Of a stretch of 33,684 bases of DNA, positions 1 through 9,378 are shown piece by piece; positions within the stretch are counted from its first letter, which is position 1; every line of letters begins with the position of its first letter. Made by a program: the position numbers and the translations under genes. Source of the DNA: Planctomycetota bacterium (GTDB lineage Bacteria; Planctomycetota; Phycisphaerae; Phycisphaerales; SM1A02); contig JADFKZ010000010.1 of the NCBI GenBank assembly GCA_022564665.1, positions 1 to 33,684 on the forward strand, read 5' to 3'. The notes under the pieces are model-generated. The model had not been told where the DNA came from. It searched no databases and saw only the letters and a program-made list of their open reading frames with translations.

Positions 1-731
1 GCAAGACATGGGTTATGGCCATGTCTATCGTCTGGTCTCACTTCCATAAAAAGAAAATGCCTGGGTCGGACTTGTCCGCGAATTTTCTCGTGGTGGCGCC
101 CAATGTCATCGTCTACCAACGACTGGAAAAAGACTTCGCCAACAATCGGGTCTTCTATGAAACCCCCCTCATCCCGCCGGAATGGCGCAGTCAATTCTCC
201 CAGAAGGTGATCCTGAGGGGAGAAGCCACTGAGCCCGACCCCTCTGGCAATCTATTCTTGACCAATATCCACCAGCTCTACGAGTCCCGTGACGATGATT
301 GGACCCCGCAGAACGCGGTAGACGCTCTCCTTGGCAAGAAGCCAGTCAAGGACCTGGCGGCTTCAGGGCAGCGCTCGATGTTGGAACGGGTCAAGTCCCT
401 GAAAGACCTGGTCGTGTTGAACGACGAAGCCCACCATGTCCACAATGAAAGCCTGGCTTGGAGCCAATCCCTGCTCGCCATCCACCGGGCCCTTCCGCAT
501 GGGATAGCCGCCTGGTTGGACTTCTCCGCAACTCCTAAGGACCAGAACGGCATGTACTTCCCCTGGACGGTCGTGGATTACCCGCTCGCCCAGGCCGTGG
601 AGGATGAAGTGGATGAGGCGATCCAATGGGAAGTGGCTCAGCATATCCCGTTTGGTTTGGAGAATGTCTACATTGATTGGCAACCCGTTCATAGTGGGCA
701 TAAAGCGGCGGCGGGTCGGCCTCGAGCCTGA
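1..731 (+). CDS. Truncated type III restriction (Res)-like DEAD/DEAH helicase, N-terminal part only
   Basis: Superfamily 2 helicase of the type III restriction Res-subunit kind, which couples ATP hydrolysis to DNA translocation. The frame is open at the window edge, and the first codons read (G)KT followed by WVMAMSIVW, the end of a Walker A motif. Motif II is NDEAHH (about residue 137 counted from the ATG at 15), and motif III is the SAT of DFSATPKDQNGMYFPW. The stretch after it, VVDYPLAQAVED, is typical of this family. From about position 605 the sequence no longer resembles the family. The frame stops at 731 inside the end of an opposite-strand pseudopilin gene. Full Res subunits run to about 800-1000 residues, so the second RecA domain and the nuclease are missing. 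Base composition is less GC-rich than the neighbouring genes. It is probably non-functional: either a remnant of an island or one side of an assembly join. Confidence 0.75.
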   Translation, partial: KTWVMAMSIVWSHFHKKKMPGSDLSANFLVVAPNVIVYQRLEKDFANNRVFYETPLIPPEWRSQFSQKVILRGEATEPDPSGNLFLTNIHQLYESRDDDWTPQNAVDALLGKKPVKDLAASGQRSMLERVKSLKDLVVLNDEAHHVHNESLAWSQSLLAIHRALPHGIAAWLDFSATPKDQNGMYFPWTVVDYPLAQAVEDEVDEAIQWEVAQHIPFGLENVYIDWQPVHSGHKAAAGRPRA

Positions 732-1122
732 CCTTGATCTTCTGTGTGGCCAGGCCCATGGTGCCGATGCCGGTGAGCTCGACGGGGTCCAGGCTTCCCG
801 TCGTCACGTCGCCGTCGGCGGGGTCCACCGCCTCGATGGTGTAGGTGCCGTTTCCGATCGGCTGGTTCTTCGGCCAGTTGGAGTTGCCGTAGGTGGTCCG
901 CCAGGCGGGGTCGTTGCTGATGTGGTGCAGCGCGATCTCCAGCGCCGAGCGCGCGTAGACCCGGGCCTCGGCCATGTCGTCGGTGCCGGCCGCGGCCCGG
1001 TGCTGGATCCGGGCGGCCATCAGCGCCGAGATGCCGATCACCGCAACCAGCAGCGACGCCGACAGGACCAGGACATAGGCGCTGCCTCGGTGACGTGAGC
1101 GGGGAACGTGGAACATCGTCAT
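535..1122 (-). CDS. PilX/GspK-like pseudopilin, C-terminus broken
   Basis: Minor-pseudopilin-like protein of a type II secretion or type IV pilus-like system, anchored in the inner membrane. After a short basic start (MTMFHVPRSRHRGSA) comes one hydrophobic helix, about residues 15-36, followed by the AARIQHRAA amphipathic stretch seen in PilX/GspK-like proteins. The globular part (about 40-138) includes ARSALEIALHHI and a beta-rich region ending KIKVRLEADPPPL. After that (below about position 700) the sequence turns into the reverse complement of the helicase fragment and makes no sense as protein up to the stop at 535. The true C-terminus is therefore lost. The start at 1122 lies 8 bases after the stop of the preceding pilin gene, behind a purine-rich AGAGAAAGG. 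It is the last gene of a three-gene minus-strand operon. Confidence 0.6.
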   Translation of the reverse strand: MTMFHVPRSRHRGSAYVLVLSASLLVAVIGISALMAARIQHRAAAGTDDMAEARVYARSALEIALHHISNDPAWRTTYGNSNWPKNQPIGNGTYTIEAVDPADGDVTTGSLDPVELTGIGTMGLATQKIKVRLEADPPPLYAHYERVANQCRHSPNQTGYAEPLPIGSPHPLHPPRPGRAGNPRPSRGSTCRSGP

Positions 1123-1130
1123 CCTTTCTC

Positions 1131-1676
1131 TCAGCGGTCAAGCTCGGGAAAGGCCCTGGTGCGGATCGCCGTGAGCTGGGCCATGGGAACGGCGTTGTGC
1201 TTGACGGTCACGATGATCCGCTTGGCGGTGGTCTCCGTGCCCGCGATCACCGACAGGTTGGTGGGGACGATCCACTTGACCTCGACGGCGCGGCTCCAGG
1301 CCGCCAGGAGGCTCAGCGGTGTCCCGTCCTTGAGCTGCGGCGGCGAGGCGATCCAGCCGTCGTAGTCGTCGACGTCGTCGAAGCCGGCGCGGCTCAAGGC
1401 GCTTTCAAGGGTGTCCCGCCCGATCGGACCCGGGCCGTCGGGCTCGTCGTAGGCCTGCTGGAGTATCTCGGCCATGAGGTCGTGGGCCAGCGCCGATCCG
1501 CGGCTTCGGCCGTCGGTCTTGTACTGGGACATCCGGGCCGCCGCCACGGTCTGTATGACGGCGGCGAACATCACGGCCACGATCACGACACAAAGGGACA
1601 TCTCGATCAGCGAGAATCCGCGTGCGGTTGGGCGGCGCGGCGTCGAAGCGCATCGGGTTTGAGTCAGACGGCTCAT
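1131..1676 (-). CDS. PilV/GspI-like prepilin-type pseudopilin
   Basis: 181-residue protein with a type IV prepilin signal: a basic leader followed by ARG|FSLIEMSLCVVIV at about residues 18-32. Cleavage by prepilin peptidase would come after the Gly, with Glu at mature position 5 and a hydrophobic assembly helix to about residue 48. The remainder is a short globular domain with no motif I recognise. The length and position between the two other pilin genes fit a PilV/GspI-type minor pseudopilin. Its ATG overlaps the stop of the upstream gene (ATGA), so translation is probably coupled. The exact type II secretion or pilus role cannot be settled without the rest of the system, which is not in the window. 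Confidence 0.75.
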   Translation of the reverse strand: MSRLTQTRCASTPRRPTARGFSLIEMSLCVVIVAVMFAAVIQTVAAARMSQYKTDGRSRGSALAHDLMAEILQQAYDEPDGPGPIGRDTLESALSRAGFDDVDDYDGWIASPPQLKDGTPLSLLAAWSRAVEVKWIVPTNLSVIAGTETTAKRIIVTVKHNAVPMAQLTAIRTRAFPELDR

Positions 1677-2728
1677 GGCGTGATGTCGTGGACGTGAAGA
1701 AGCGAGACGCCAGTCTCCACGCCTGTGGTCGGGTCAATGCCTGTTCTGATCTTGACGCGGATGCCGGTGAGGTAGGTGGTCGCGACCGTGACGTTCTCCT
1801 TGTAGGTGCCGTACACGGAGTAGAGCAATGACCGGACTGCGCTGAGGAGCCACGTCGCTCCCGCGTCGTGGGTTAGAAAGCGATTGCCGGCCTCGGACGT
1901 GTAGCGGACCACGGCGGCATCGATCCCGGCGGCCCACTTGACCACCAGGCACAGCCCCTCATCGGGGGGCCATGGCGGGATGTCGTTGAAGAAGAACTCC
2001 TGCCAGATCATGGCAGCGCCGAGGTTGTCCGCGTAGTACTGCTCCAGGACGGCCGGCGTCGGAAGACCGCCGGGGTCAGCGGGGCGGAGCTGGACCCAGA
2101 TGGCGTTGCCCGCACTCGGGGGATCTTTCGCCTGGAACAGGATGCGCGTGACCGTCCAGCTTGTCGCGCTCACCGGCAGCGATGGCTGAATGTATTGGCC
2201 GTACCAGTCGGTGGGCGTGACCCAGTACGTCTGGTTGTCAGCGGCGGTCGCCTTGCTGTCCAGGAGTACCTCAGCGCTCTCCTGGACCTCTTGCTCGTTG
2301 ACGATCGTGGTGTCGTAGAGCAGCTCGAACTCCTCGGCGGCTTCGATGATCCAGACCACCGTCCCGCCGTTGTACTGGCGGGTCACCGGGTCGCCGGGGG
2401 TGCCGGAGAAGGCGTACCTGATCGTCTCGGGGACCGCGTCGCCGCTTCGGTCAGCGACGGTGAACTCGATGGCGTTTGCGGTACGCTCGAGAAAAGACCG
2501 GGCAAACAGCAGTTCGCCCGCGATCTGCTCGGCAACTTCGGCGGCGGTCGCGACCGCGGTCGTGGCCTCCGGTGCGTCCGGTATGGCGTGGGCGGCGAGC
2601 ACGATCGCTGAGCCGATGGCCGAAAGCACGATCGACAGGACGACCATGCTCAGGACCATCTCGATGAGGGTGTGGCCGCGGCGATCGGGGGAGGGTCTGC
2701 TGGCTGTCCGGCGGTTTGGGTGGTCCAC
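1673..2728 (-). CDS. PilW/GspJ-like prepilin-type pseudopilin
   Basis: First gene of the pseudopilin operon. The prepilin signal reads RRG|HTLIEMVLSMVVLSIVL: Gly at -1, Glu at +5 and a hydrophobic helix. The domain after it is about 300 residues with many Trp, Tyr and Thr positions, which suits a beta-rich minor pseudopilin of PilW/GspJ type. An open frame continues upstream to 2971, but that stretch is Arg/Pro-rich, runs through an intergenic repeat and overlaps the divergent methyltransferase. I therefore prefer the GTG at 2728, which has GGAG five bases upstream and gives 351 residues with a short 18-20 residue leader before the cleavage site. The product probably initiates a pseudopilus tip together with the next two gene products. 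Confidence 0.7.
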   Translation of the reverse strand: MDHPNRRTASRPSPDRRGHTLIEMVLSMVVLSIVLSAIGSAIVLAAHAIPDAPEATTAVATAAEVAEQIAGELLFARSFLERTANAIEFTVADRSGDAVPETIRYAFSGTPGDPVTRQYNGGTVVWIIEAAEEFELLYDTTIVNEQEVQESAEVLLDSKATAADNQTYWVTPTDWYGQYIQPSLPVSATSWTVTRILFQAKDPPSAGNAIWVQLRPADPGGLPTPAVLEQYYADNLGAAMIWQEFFFNDIPPWPPDEGLCLVVKWAAGIDAAVVRYTSEAGNRFLTHDAGATWLLSAVRSLLYSVYGTYKENVTVATTYLTGIRVKIRTGIDPTTGVETGVSLLHVHDITP

Positions 2729-2808
2729 CCACGCTCCATCGGCCAAGGGGCGAGTTGGGCTTAGAGCGATTCCTGGCTTCGAGCGGCGGCAAGGCCGCTT
2801 GGCGGCAG

Positions 2809-2900
2809 GTTGCGTCAAAGCGAAAGCGGCCGATTGAGTCGGCCGCGTAGCCGCCAGAGCGAGTGTCGGCTGGAAGGGCCGTACGGAGCGCTCAAAACAG
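2809..2900 (-). repeat. Intergenic hairpin repeat, copy A
   Basis: On the minus strand this begins CTGTTTTGAGCGCTCCGTA and ends TTTCGCTTTGACGCAAC. The core contains the hairpin CGGCCGACTCAATCGGCCG. It is closely similar to copy B at 3683-3773 (plus strand) and matches the two ends of the longer copy C at 29051-29229. It lies in the divergent gap between the pseudopilin operon and the methyltransferase. Confidence 0.8.
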
Positions 2901-2958
2901 TAGGCAGACCTGCCGGATCGGGCCCCGACTCGCCGGCAGGGCCCATAGACTCCCGGCC

Positions 2959-3636
2959 ATGGAGATGACACCCCAGCGGTGGCGGTTCACGGGCGAGTAC
3001 TCACGGCAGGTCTTTGGAAGTCAGGATGCCCACCTGGCGGGCTTGATGCAGGAGGCGGTTTCGGAAGGCCTGCCCGACATCGCCGTCAGCGCCGACGTCG
3101 GTCGCCTGCTGATGATCCTCACCTCGATGACCAGGGGCAGGCTCGCCCTGGAGCTCGGCACCCTCGCCGGATACTCCGCGATCTGGATCGCCAGGGGGCT
3201 CGCCGCCGACGGCCGGCTGATCACGATCGAGCGCGAGCCGGATCATGCCGAGTTTGCCCGAAAGCAGTTTGCCCTGGCCGGCGTGGATCACAAGATCGAG
3301 CTGCGGTGCGGGGCGGCGTTGGATCTGCTGTCGCGGCTGGCCGGTGAGATCGGGCCGGGATCGGTCGACATGGTCTTTCTGGATGCGGCCAAGACCGAGT
3401 ATCCCGAATACTTCCGGATCGTTCGTCCACTGGTGTCGGTGGGCGGGCTTGTCCTGGCCGACAATGTTTTGGGCGGGGGATCGTGGTGGATCGACGACCT
3501 CGGCAGCCAAGAGCGCCAGGCTGCGGATCAGTTGAACCGTCTCCTGGCTGCGGATCCAGATTTTGAGGCGGTTGCGGTCCCGATCAGAAGCGGTGTTCTG
3601 ATCGGAAGGAGAATGAGAGACGCCGACAGCCGATAG
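2959..3636 (+). CDS. Class I SAM-dependent O-methyltransferase (family 3 type)
   Basis: Cytoplasmic methyltransferase of the catechol/caffeoyl-CoA O-methyltransferase type, 225 residues, close to the usual 210-230. Motif I is LELGTLAGYSAIWIARGL (about 63-80), followed by the acidic GRLITIE strand end. VDMVFLDAAKTEYPEYF carries the conserved Asp and Lys of the metal and substrate pocket, and GGLVLADNVLGGG is the late Asp-Asn motif. The start at 2959 is chosen because the protein then begins just before the family helix RWRFTGEYSRQV. A GTG at 2863 would add 32 unlikely residues drawn from the repeat. No good Shine-Dalgarno is visible. The gene stands alone between two inverted copies of a 92-bp repeat. 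The methyl acceptor cannot be told from sequence. Confidence 0.88.
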   Translation: MEMTPQRWRFTGEYSRQVFGSQDAHLAGLMQEAVSEGLPDIAVSADVGRLLMILTSMTRGRLALELGTLAGYSAIWIARGLAADGRLITIEREPDHAEFARKQFALAGVDHKIELRCGAALDLLSRLAGEIGPGSVDMVFLDAAKTEYPEYFRIVRPLVSVGGLVLADNVLGGGSWWIDDLGSQERQAADQLNRLLAADPDFEAVAVPIRSGVLIGRRMRDADSR

Positions 3637-6235: not shown

Positions 6236-7504
6236 GTGAAACAGGTTCTACGACAGCTCGTCGGCTCGACGATCGTGGGATCGGCTCTGGCGGCGGGCGC
6301 CCAGGCGGCCAACCAGGCCGCCATCCGGGTGGTCGAGGACCCCGGCAACTCAGTGAAGCTCCAGATCGCCGTCAGGACGTATCAAACGCCCGAGGCAACC
6401 GGTCCGAGGGTCTCCCTCGTGGGCGTCGCGCACATCGGTGAGCGAGGGTTCTATCGCGCAATCCAGGAGTTTCTCGATGGGTACGCGGTGGTCCTCTACG
6501 AGTCGGTCAAGCCGCCGGGCGCGTCGGCGGCGGGGGGTGAAAGCGATGCCGAGCGGGCCGAAACGACTGAGGCGGCGCTGGGGTTTGTGGCCGAGGCGCT
6601 CCAGCTGCACCACCGGACCGCGGACCGCTACCCGCCCGATCTGGAGGGACTGATCGCGTTCGCTGGCGAACGCGACCCACGCCTCGGCCAGTGGCTTGCC
6701 GGCGCCGTCACTGATGCCTGGGGTCGCCACCTGAAGTACCGGTTGACCGATGAGGGCCGGCGGTTCGTGCTCGCGAGCTTGGGCGCCGATGGTGTGCCGG
6801 GCGGCGAAGGGGCCGATCGAGATCTTCAGGTGACCACGGACGAGGTTCCCACGACGTGGTCGGGTGGCGGTGAGGACAATCTCCAGGCGGAGCTGGCCAA
6901 GGCGCTGGGGCTGGAGTTCCAGCTTGACGCGATCGACTACGGCAAAGACCACTTTCGCTCCAGCGATCTGGCGATGGACGAGCTGGTCGAGGCGTTGGGC
7001 GACCAAGGCGTTGACTTCGGTCCGATTCGCGAGAGCCTGGCGGGGTCATCGCTCCCGGGGAAGCTCGTTATCTACCTGCTGCGGGTCCTGCGCTTTGTCG
7101 ACGTGATCCTGGATGGTGCCATCGCCGACACCATGAAGGTGGTGCTCATCGAGCTGCTAGCCGACGAGACGCTGATGGAGCAGGGGCTGGCCCAGTTCGG
7201 TCCCGGCCTCAAGACGGTGCTCATCGACAAACGCAACCAGCTCGTGATTGACCAGCTTAAGCGGATCGTCCAGGAGGAGCCGGAGGTGAAATCGGTCGGG
7301 ATCTTCTACGGCGCAGCCCACATGCCCGACATGGCGCGGCGTCTGACAGAGCAGCTGGGGTATGAGCCGGCGGGCAGCGTGCGCTGGCTCACCGCCTTTG
7401 AGGTGGACCTCAGGCACTCGGCGATGACCGCCAGCCAGCTCACGCAGATCCGGCGGATGATCAGGCGGCAGCTGGAGTCGTTGGCAGAACGCGGCAAAGA
7501 GTAA
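6236..7504 (+). CDS. Secreted TraB/TIKI-like protein with an inserted GspG-like calcium-loop domain
   Basis: The N-terminus is a signal peptide (hydrophobic about 8-22, likely cleavage after AQA at 25), so the protein is exported. VGVAHIGERGF (62-72) and YGAAHMPDMARRL (358-370) carry the two GxxH motifs of the TraB/PrgY/TIKI (erythromycin-esterase-related) fold, whose TIKI members are metalloproteases. Between them, about residues 110-205 look like the C-terminal part of the major pseudopilin GspG: HHRTADRYPPDLEGL, DAWGRHLKYR, then SLGADGVPGGEGADRDL, which is the Ca-binding loop of GspG. No pilin helix precedes it. The GTG start has an excellent AGGAGGAGG about five bases upstream. I see the two motif sets directly. 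The combined function is unknown, and protease activity is not shown. Confidence 0.65.
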   Translation: MKQVLRQLVGSTIVGSALAAGAQAANQAAIRVVEDPGNSVKLQIAVRTYQTPEATGPRVSLVGVAHIGERGFYRAIQEFLDGYAVVLYESVKPPGASAAGGESDAERAETTEAALGFVAEALQLHHRTADRYPPDLEGLIAFAGERDPRLGQWLAGAVTDAWGRHLKYRLTDEGRRFVLASLGADGVPGGEGADRDLQVTTDEVPTTWSGGGEDNLQAELAKALGLEFQLDAIDYGKDHFRSSDLAMDELVEALGDQGVDFGPIRESLAGSSLPGKLVIYLLRVLRFVDVILDGAIADTMKVVLIELLADETLMEQGLAQFGPGLKTVLIDKRNQLVIDQLKRIVQEEPEVKSVGIFYGAAHMPDMARRLTEQLGYEPAGSVRWLTAFEVDLRHSAMTASQLTQIRRMIRRQLESLAERGKE

Positions 7505-7506
7505 GG

Positions 7507-8544
7507 CTACCGATGCTCGAAGTTCGCCTTGTCGGCGATATCGATAAAGGCACGCTGGTCCGTGAGCTTTCCGGGCAACACGGCGTTGGTGTGGCCGTCG
7601 GCGTACAGGACGGCGGCGTTGCCGGTGTAACGTCCGATGGGAGCGGGTCTCTTGGTCAGGACCTCGATGATCGCCTCGCTCTGTCTGACCCCTAGGACTT
7701 CATGCAGCTTCCACTGGTCTTTGTCGCCCAGACGCGACGGCGAGATCCAGTGCGCACCAGGCAGGGTATCGCGGACCTTGTCATAGACGGTCTCCGGCTT
7801 GAACGCGGCCGATGAGGAACAGAAGATGACCAGCTCCGTCGAGCGCCTGATCTGGGCCACCGAGCGGACGACCACCCGCGCGTATTCCTCGGAGCCGATA
7901 GTGAGGTCGCCGTCAAGATCGGCGGTGGCGTCGTAGAACTTGTAACGGGGTATCGGAGTCCCCGCCCCCTCGGTGGGCGTCATCTCCCACCACCCACCGA
8001 CGTAGAGTGCGTTGTATCCAAAGCCCGGTTCATAGGCCATCCGCTTCGCTTCGGCAAAGAGCTTTGGATTGGCGATGATGTCGTTCAGGGTCATGCTGGT
8101 CCGCTCGAATGCAGGTTCGTCAGTGTGGCCGTGGACCATCTGGTGGTTGTAGTCCAGATAGGGAAGCAGACGCCACGTCCATGGGCCGGCGAGGTTGTCG
8201 TCGGGCGACCAGGCCCCATTGGGAGTGCTCGGGGCCGGGGGGATGACCGAGCTGTCGATGAACTCGTACTCCGCTCTCCAGGCCTCTTGCACCTCCGGCT
8301 CGATGAACCCCGGCAGCGCCGCGTCACCATGAGAGAGGGCATACTGGTTCCACGCCACGCCGATCTGGCGGAGGGCGCTGAGCTCCTTCATCTTCTGGCT
8401 GCTTTTCTTGGCGCCCGAAAGGGCCGGCAACAGCATCCCCATCAAGAGGGTGATGATGGCGATGACGGTCAGCATCTCGATGATCGTGAAACCGCCCCCG
8501 GAACCGCCCCCGGAACCGCCCTCGGAAACCATACGCCTTTCCAT
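7507..8544 (-). CDS. Prepilin-type N-terminal cleavage/methylation protein (planctomycete G/H-type pseudopilin)
   Basis: 345 residues starting MERRMVSEGG from an ATG with AAGGAG six bases upstream; the longer frame to 8598 is not needed. The leader is a Ser/Gly repeat, (GGS)GGG-like, then G|FTIIEMLTVIAIITLLMG, a class III prepilin site with Glu at +5 and a hydrophobic helix (about 19-38). The long exported domain contains many Trp and Tyr. Near the C-terminus AAVLYADGHTNAV resembles the DGH tail motif of the large planctomycete pseudopilin families (DUF1559 and relatives). It lies three bases from the stop of the convergent gene at 6236-7504. It could be surface-exposed or part of a pseudopilus; no dedicated secretion genes are beside it. 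Confidence 0.75.
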   Translation of the reverse strand: MERRMVSEGGSGGGSGGGFTIIEMLTVIAIITLLMGMLLPALSGAKKSSQKMKELSALRQIGVAWNQYALSHGDAALPGFIEPEVQEAWRAEYEFIDSSVIPPAPSTPNGAWSPDDNLAGPWTWRLLPYLDYNHQMVHGHTDEPAFERTSMTLNDIIANPKLFAEAKRMAYEPGFGYNALYVGGWWEMTPTEGAGTPIPRYKFYDATADLDGDLTIGSEEYARVVVRSVAQIRRSTELVIFCSSSAAFKPETVYDKVRDTLPGAHWISPSRLGDKDQWKLHEVLGVRQSEAIIEVLTKRPAPIGRYTGNAAVLYADGHTNAVLPGKLTDQRAFIDIADKANFEHR

Positions 8545-8679
8545 CGGATGCTCCTTGTGGCCAGTGGGCTCACACAGCCCTAGATCCCGCTCGATCATAG
8601 CTTGCTCGCGGATCTGTACGTCCCGGGGTACGGCCCCGATGCCGTCGGGGCGCGCAAAAGAAGGAAAAAGTGGTCGTGT

Positions 8680-9378
8680 TCAAAACGGCGGCTCGCCCCG
8701 CAGGCGACGGGCGATGTCGGCCAGGATCCGGGGGTCGTGGCCGGCGCCCAGGTGTGACAACACCAAAGGCCCGCCGACCACCCACCACGGGTTGCGCCCC
8801 GTGGGAGCCGTGTTCTCGGTTCCCACGACCAGGTCGCCCACTCGCGCATAGGAGTACACCTCGTAGTTGGCCGCCGCCAGATCGGCGTCGAGCGCGGCGA
8901 GGAAGTCCGACCCTGGACGCATATCGATCTTGCGTTGGTCCAGCGTGGGAAGGGCGGCGAGCCGCGCCCCGCGGTGGGGGGTGCTGATCGTAAAGAGCCG
9001 TCTGATCCCAAGGCGGCGGCCCTCGGTCCGCTGCCTGGCGGCATGACGCGCCACGATTCCACCCATCGAATACCCCACCACGTCGACCTCAGCGGTCACG
9101 TCGCCGTCCGTGGGGCCGAACGTCTTCTGTACGGCGTCTATGAGGCGATCGCGGCACGCATCAAGGGTCCGGGCGCCAGGCCCGACGAACGCGACAGAGA
9201 TGATCGAATCGCTGCCTGTGATCGCAGAGCCCAGCACGCGGGCGACATGGGGCGCGACAAACCCGGGATCGTGGATGCCCCCGGCCACGACGACAGGCCG
9301 GGAGAGTGGCTTGGGCTCACGCCGCATCCGCCTGAGGGCGGCCTTCGCCTCGGCGCGCGAAAGCAGGGTCATCGGCAC
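8680..9378 (-). CDS. Lipase-like alpha/beta hydrolase
   Basis: 232-residue alpha/beta hydrolase related to PGAP1/triacylglycerol lipase-like proteins. The oxyanion-hole region is VVVAGGIHDPG (about 29-39). The nucleophile elbow is VVGYSMGGIVARHAA (Ser near residue 103), and ISTPHRGARLAALP is the strand after it that is characteristic of lipases. RVGDLVVG supplies a candidate catalytic Asp, and the His of LSHLGAGHDPRIL a candidate catalytic base. There is no signal peptide, so it is probably cytoplasmic or membrane-peripheral. It starts (GTG at 9378, or ATG at 9372) immediately after the ispG stop and is probably cotranscribed with it. The substrate is unknown; an esterase is equally possible. 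Confidence 0.75.
   Translation of the reverse strand: MPMTLLSRAEAKAALRRMRREPKPLSRPVVVAGGIHDPGFVAPHVARVLGSAITGSDSIISVAFVGPGARTLDACRDRLIDAVQKTFGPTDGDVTAEVDVVGYSMGGIVARHAARQRTEGRRLGIRRLFTISTPHRGARLAALPTLDQRKIDMRPGSDFLAALDADLAAANYEVYSYARVGDLVVGTENTAPTGRNPWWVVGGPLVLSHLGAGHDPRILADIARRLRGEPPF

Follow-up and report, generated by a model that had tools for sequence, protein, structure and literature searches.

Our analysis concerns the open frame at 6236-7504 (+) of the window, by which we mean the whole stretch of 33,684 nucleotides that was analysed. The frame opens with a GTG start, immediately 5' of which lies a strong Shine-Dalgarno sequence (AGGAGG), and encodes 422 amino acids. The features of this gene and of the gene that converges on it are as follows, with the basis of each assignment in brackets.

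6236..7504, + strand: TIKI/TraB-type hydrolase core with an inserted GspG (T2SSG) domain (open frame, ribosome-binding site, Pfam, AlphaFold)
6236..6310, + strand: Sec-type signal peptide, about residues 1-25 (sequence MKQVLRQLVGSTIVGSALAAGAQAA)
6326..6517, + strand: TIKI core part 1, residues 31-94, with the first GxxH (G63-H66) and the catalytic Glu E89 (invariance of H66 and E89)
6542..6835, + strand: inserted GspG/T2SSG globular domain, residues 103-200 (Pfam, VIA, invariant D160 and W162)
6776..6826, + strand: GspG-type calcium loop, residues 181-197, SLGADGVPGGEGADRDL (D185 and D196 align with GspG calcium ligands)
6881..7408, + strand: TIKI core part 2, residues 216-391, with R333-N334 and the second GxxH (G359-H362, GAAHMPDM) (invariance, TraB profile)
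7507..8598, - strand: large type IV pilin-like protein with N-terminal FTIIEMLTVIAIITLL, a convergent neighbour outside the fusion (neighbour conserved in the family)

The fusion protein is probably active in the periplasm or at the cell envelope; in one homologue (L004) a lipobox-like Cys ('LIGTLGC|ADT') takes the place of the Sec-type signal peptide. The two GxxH motifs that the first-pass annotation placed at residues 63-66 and 359-362 are indeed present, as G63-H66 and G359-H362. Moreover, H66, E89, R333, N334 and GAAH362MPDM are invariant both in 33 insert-bearing homologues and in a 29-row alignment that includes insert-free ones. Positions 198-246 of the Pfam TraB profile (PF01963) match residues 314-365 at E 7e-5, a sub-threshold match of 23.2 bits against a gathering score of 26.8. 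Even so, the TraB profile does recognise the family as a whole, since 18 of the 29 members scanned match it at E ≤ 0.01 (best 1.1e-7); a T2SSG match was seen in 5 of the 29, all of them insert-bearing. As a test of the core, an insert-free relative (L006:4616-5518, + strand) was folded separately, and structures of the superfamily appeared among its top rows: ChaN (Z 6.3), HopBA1 (5.6), the BcR-type 2qgm (5.0), EreC (4.7) and RRSP (4.1). The core thus has the fold of the TIKI/EreA superfamily as represented by ChaN, HopBA1, EreC, Bcr135/136 and RRSP, at Z scores of 4.1-6.3 that are modest; several of ChaN, HopBA1, BcR135/136, EreC and RRSP are members of that superfamily (PMC6254334). A Foldseek search with the model of the whole fusion returned no TIKI structure at E below 0.001. 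Because the fold scores are modest and the TraB match lies below threshold, we base the TIKI assignment on the invariant residues and the fold together. With TIKI/TraB/PrgY/GumN (PF01963) and the TIKI/EreA/ChaN superfamily the protein has in common the two GxxH motifs, the Glu, the Arg and the core fold; it differs from TIKI/TraB/PrgY/GumN in its TraB score below the cut-off and in the GspG domain of about 95 residues that interrupts the loop following its catalytic Glu.

A separate observation came from the same structural comparison. The top match of the TIKI core, in the model of L006, was a Tetrahymena mitochondrial complex IV subunit (8bqs_DQ, 8b6h_DQ and 7w5z_E; Z 8.3-9.2 over 207-213 residues); the core of the fusion model likewise resembles such a subunit (Z about 9). 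This comparison of a predicted model suggests that Tetrahymena mitochondrial complex IV may contain a TraB-like protein.

The inserted part matches GspG both in sequence and in predicted fold. Pfam T2SSG (PF08334) aligns with residues 103-198 over profile positions 6-106 of 108 at E 4.8e-10, and the solved EpsG is matched by sequence at E 1.6e-4. The NCBIfam GspG model TIGR01710 also finds the protein (E 7.5e-10), with 39 bits against an equivalog cut-off of 88.85, which is not passed. Of the two profiles proposed for a search, T2SSG was found well above its cut-off (39.9 bits, cut-off 21), whereas TraB fell short of its own. A profile built here from GspG gave the fusion protein 38.9 bits and the best of 2000 shuffled sequences 7.0, so that a chance match is ruled out. 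A recent origin by copying from a GspG of the host is ruled out as well: a profile of the insert gives the host GspG pilins no more than 18-21 bits, while other GspGs reach up to 57. In an AlphaFold model of the fusion protein, for which the input was 29 natural sequences, both folds are predicted to form (mean pLDDT 87.1, pTM 0.82, with blocks of the insert mostly at 87-96), and the module at 103-200 stands apart between low-confidence linkers at about 90-103 and 200-215. Its elements are an alpha1C helix (104-129), a helix at 136-146, a DAW motif (160-162) and three strands. VIA places residues 102-200 of the model on EpsG and PulG with Z scores of 8.9-9.7. The tight alignments cover 91-93 residues at 2.6-2.8 Å, among them that with EpsG 3gn9 (Z 9.7, 2.6 Å, 93 residues). 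The claim that a GspG domain is inserted in a TIKI/TraB-like protein is thus upheld by profile, structure and conservation in homologues.

With GspG, EpsG and PulG the insert shares alpha1C, the second helix, the D-x-W motif, the beta-sheet and the GGEG calcium loop. Unlike them, it lies inside an enzyme and outside any T2SS operon, and has no prepilin signal, FTLIE or alpha1N. In the residues before 103, which consist of TIKI core and the Sec-type leader, we found no prepilin leader, no FTLIE-type cleavage site and no hydrophobic alpha1N. The earlier statement that the domain comes without the pilin helix is thus correct for alpha1N, but the amphipathic alpha1C is kept. Residues D160, W162 and D196 are invariant in the 33 distinct insert-bearing sequences, and the DPW motif of pilins is mostly DAW in the inserts. 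No T2SS operon context exists at the locus, the flanks being tsf-rpsB and the pilin-like gene, ispG and topA; the GspG pilins of this genome (L035, L036) are encoded elsewhere, away from the fusion gene.

Where in the enzyme does the module sit? The insert starts directly after the strand that ends in E89, at a place where insert-free relatives have a loop of about 20 residues, and E89 corresponds to the Glu that, as is established for the TIKI family, forms a pair with a GxxH His. This would put the module near the mouth of the active site; its place beside that site follows from sequence position and secondary structure, and should be read as a prediction. The 2His/2Glu site is discussed in PMC6254334.

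The fusion is real, old and conserved. All four closest relatives in public genome contigs (L001-L004, from MAGs of Planctomycetota or Phycisphaerales) have the insert, and nearly thirty remoter relatives, from Planctomycetota, Verrucomicrobiota, Gammaproteobacteria and Armatimonadota, are without it. Within the order of the window the fusion was found in 118 of the 251 genomes searched, the insert having been checked residue by residue in about 30 of the 118, and it occurs in four families elsewhere in the phylum (f48, f53, f63 and f88, the f63 copy being cut by a contig end). The insertion site is identical across families, so that the suggested survey of homologues did recover the same insertion. 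A one-off or chimeric MAG artefact is also ruled out, since more than 100 genomes share the architecture. When a tree was built from the core only, a branch with 100% support separated 40 insert-bearing from 23 insert-free sequences, with 2 label changes observed against 19.5 expected, the sole insert-free sequence among the bearers being a long-branch one from Armatimonadota. The tree is consistent with one insertion event, which is the simplest reading. Mean pairwise identity is 32% in the insert and 39% in the core, and NG86 dN/dS in computable pairs is about 0.12-0.46 for the insert and 0.06-0.28 for the core, showing that both are under purifying selection.

The calcium loop had been described as of GspG type, and this wording is right. 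In EHEC GspG 3G20 the calcium ligands are the carbonyl oxygens of P114 and V119 together with D117, T122 and D125 (PMC3396595), and by alignment D185 corresponds to D117 and D196 to D125; in the insert-bearing alignment D185 is kept in 31 of 33 homologues and D196 in all 33. However, two f53 sequences, L143 and L144, have lost the loop by deletion, L145 has an altered one, and in L060 and L063 it is degenerate, although TIKI core and insert are both retained. Calcium binding would thus be common without being essential to the architecture, and calcium control cannot be a general feature. GspG itself binds calcium at this site, requires the site for function and misfolds without calcium (PMC3396595, PMC6692295), and its calcium is structural rather than regulatory (PMC6692295). 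A known parallel is offered by the PERCAL insertions in animal-type peroxidases of bacteria, such as PepA (PMC3396595), where a pseudopilin-like calcium loop likewise lies inside an enzyme domain. That insertion, however, is a loop of only 11 residues, whereas here the entire GspG globular domain has been inserted; in PepA, saturation of the same motif with calcium brought no major change of activity (PMC3396595).

The first-pass annotation had assumed that a pseudopilin domain normally occurs on pilins and nowhere else, and in Planctomycetota this does not hold. T2SSG is present in 74 of 78 genomes surveyed in the phylum, with many matches in frames of 500-900 amino acids; of 20 long-frame matches examined, 17 are non-pilins and 3 are ordinary pilins (L101, L117, L118). 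Three of the non-pilins (L109:1299-2846, - strand; L110:1707-3110, + strand; L116) are secreted proteins with four tandem T2SSG domains and no pilin helix. A further group consists of exported proteins of 600-900 amino acids that carry T2SSG at the C-terminus, of which one has a weak DUF3352 match (the DUF3352-like proteins are L100 and L111), and the remaining carriers include two membrane proteins and one beta-propeller-like protein; beyond the Pfam matches, the names of these proteins are our reading of the sequence. Individual arrangements also vary: in L102:11-2086 (- strand) T2SSG lies between leucine-rich repeats, and in L114:612-3146 (+ strand) it follows a DUF4340 domain. The window's own genome holds, besides its two GspG pilins, one further non-pilin T2SSG protein, L038:1087-2130 (- strand, contig C119), a multi-pass membrane protein with a T2SSG fragment, encoded beside dnaK. 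All these proteins (L109/L110/L116, L100/L111, L114, L102, L103, L038) carry the same module without the pilin helix on an exported or membrane protein; they differ from the fusion in that none is a TIKI enzyme and in that the module mostly stands at the C-terminus or in tandem copies, not within a catalytic domain.

The gene neighbourhood was compared over 24 distinct insert-bearing loci. In 17 of them the fusion gene is immediately preceded, on the same strand, by a MotA/TolQ/ExbB gene (Pfam E 1e-23 to 1e-25), frequently with an ATGA or GTGA overlap between the two; none of the 33 insert-free loci has such a gene nearby. Across the order, as read from the table, ExbB is adjacent to the fusion in 50 of the 54 fusion-bearing genomes of f1, the family of the window, and in 5 of 6 of f5; in families f2-f4 the fusion has no ExbB neighbour where both positions are given. 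The common gene order is dxs, polyprenyl synthetase, ExbB, fusion, pilin-like gene, ispG, topA and miaA (dxs, topA and miaA being named from sequence with partial HMM support), and in about 16 of 24 loci a pilin-like homologue follows the fusion gene at once or is found close by. The window is exceptional in having rpsB-tsf upstream and no ExbB of the linked type, and none of the four ExbB-type genes of its genome is closely related to that type. Because linked-type ExbB is found in 191 of 251 genomes and the fusion in 118, ExbB is not dedicated to the fusion, and the reading of a dedicated partner is weakened, ExbB without fusion and fusion without ExbB both occurring. With the host's three ExbDs as phmmer queries no ExbD/TolR-type partner was found in the loci, and the ExbB gene overlaps the fusion gene with no ExbD near in L003, L004, L119, L123-L125, L130, L131, L134 and L135.

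The pilin-like protein at 7507-8598 (-) begins with a methylation-type helix and has N-terminal pilin matches in NCBIfam only, with no match in Pfam. Between its gene and ispG lies a predicted alpha/beta hydrolase at 8680-9378 (-) (PGAP1-like, E 1.9e-6). At the left end of the window, near tsf/rpsB, 535-2971 (-) is occupied by a run of pilin-like genes, two of which have N_methyl matches. A role in anti-phage defence was considered and rejected, since PADLOC models matched neither the fusion nor the ExbB neighbour.

What might such a fusion do? We favour, at a probability of about one half, a predicted periplasmic hydrolase of TIKI type in which a loop flanking the active site became a calcium-stabilised recognition module. 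The protein would be a TIKI/TraB-type hydrolase that is exported, with peptidase as its most likely activity, and the globular part of GspG would have been inserted once, early in the evolution of Planctomycetota, into the loop that flanks the active site. Because alpha1N is missing, the module would be unable to polymerise; in the PulG filament, most of the contacts are made by the alpha1 helix, and the beta-sheet and calcium loop are left exposed (PMC6692295). The module would most likely be an accessory domain, stabilised by calcium, that controls how the active site is reached or that helps to select or hold a substrate or partner. Appended domains have such an accessory role in other TIKI enzymes, and some members of the TIKI superfamily are not enzymes. 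Another view, that the domain is tolerated and has no specific role beyond folding, would accommodate its somewhat faster evolution and the fact that some lineages have lost the calcium loop. We regard it as very unlikely, however, given that several families have kept the module and no clean loss was seen, that D160, W162 and D196 do not vary, and that dN/dS is well below 1.

Other readings give the module a more specific task. The GspG head could tie the enzyme to a T2SS pseudopilus or to related pilin filaments, whether the enzyme is cargo there, processes pilins or acts as a terminator, and the unmistakable GspG fold, the true GspG pilins of the host and the conserved convergent pilin-like gene all speak for this. 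The insert, however, lacks alpha1N; nor is it close to the host GspGs, and it mostly has DAW for the DPW of pilins. Because T2SSG recurs on unrelated non-pilins throughout the phylum, a GspG domain here is weak evidence for a pseudopilus link, and the step from having the domain to docking on a type II pseudopilus loses most of its force; co-occurrence is uninformative too, T2SSG being near-universal. We therefore find docking quite unlikely. A calcium switch or gate, by which binding to the module would control the TIKI activity, appears unlikely as well: the conserved Asp pair and the dependence of GspG function on its site favour it, but lineages that have deleted, altered or degraded the loop retain both parts of the protein, calcium in GspG is no switch, and PepA with its motif saturated behaves much as before. 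Similarly improbable is a two-gene envelope device, in which an ExbB/TolQ-type channel forms a complex with the TIKI-GspG protein and positions or energises it. The adjacency in insert-bearing loci, in f1 and in f5, set against its absence from insert-free loci, is what suggests such a device, yet the window and its genome do without the linked-type ExbB, as do the f2-f4 fusions at this position; ExbB is common in fusion-free genomes, there is no ExbD in the loci, and the leader has no ExbD-like transmembrane Asp. Highly improbable, in our estimate, is the most elaborate version, an envelope protease machine for the surveillance of pilins or secretion, in which the calcium-stabilised pseudopilin head would recognise pseudopilins or secreted proteins and the channel would position or energise the enzyme.

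Thus, of the readings weighed here we return to the TIKI-type hydrolase with a calcium-stabilised recognition module. Its TIKI and GspG parts are both known families, and the GspG module is widely reused in the phylum. In the literature searched, of which coverage was partial, we found neither the TIKI-T2SSG architecture nor a report of GspG domains on planctomycete non-pilins. For annotation, our results imply that matches to TIGR01710 or PF08334 in Planctomycetota are often not type II pseudopilins: the four-copy non-pilin L109 reaches 104.8 bits, passes the GspG equivalog cut-off of 88.85, and would be mis-annotated as GspG. More generally, the globular domain of GspG emerges as a reusable extracytoplasmic module, beyond its role as a pilus subunit. 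A planctomycete lineage incorporated this head into a TIKI-type enzyme, on what is predicted to be the side of the active site, and then kept it, which offers a concrete and testable case of the role of a pilin head without a pilus.
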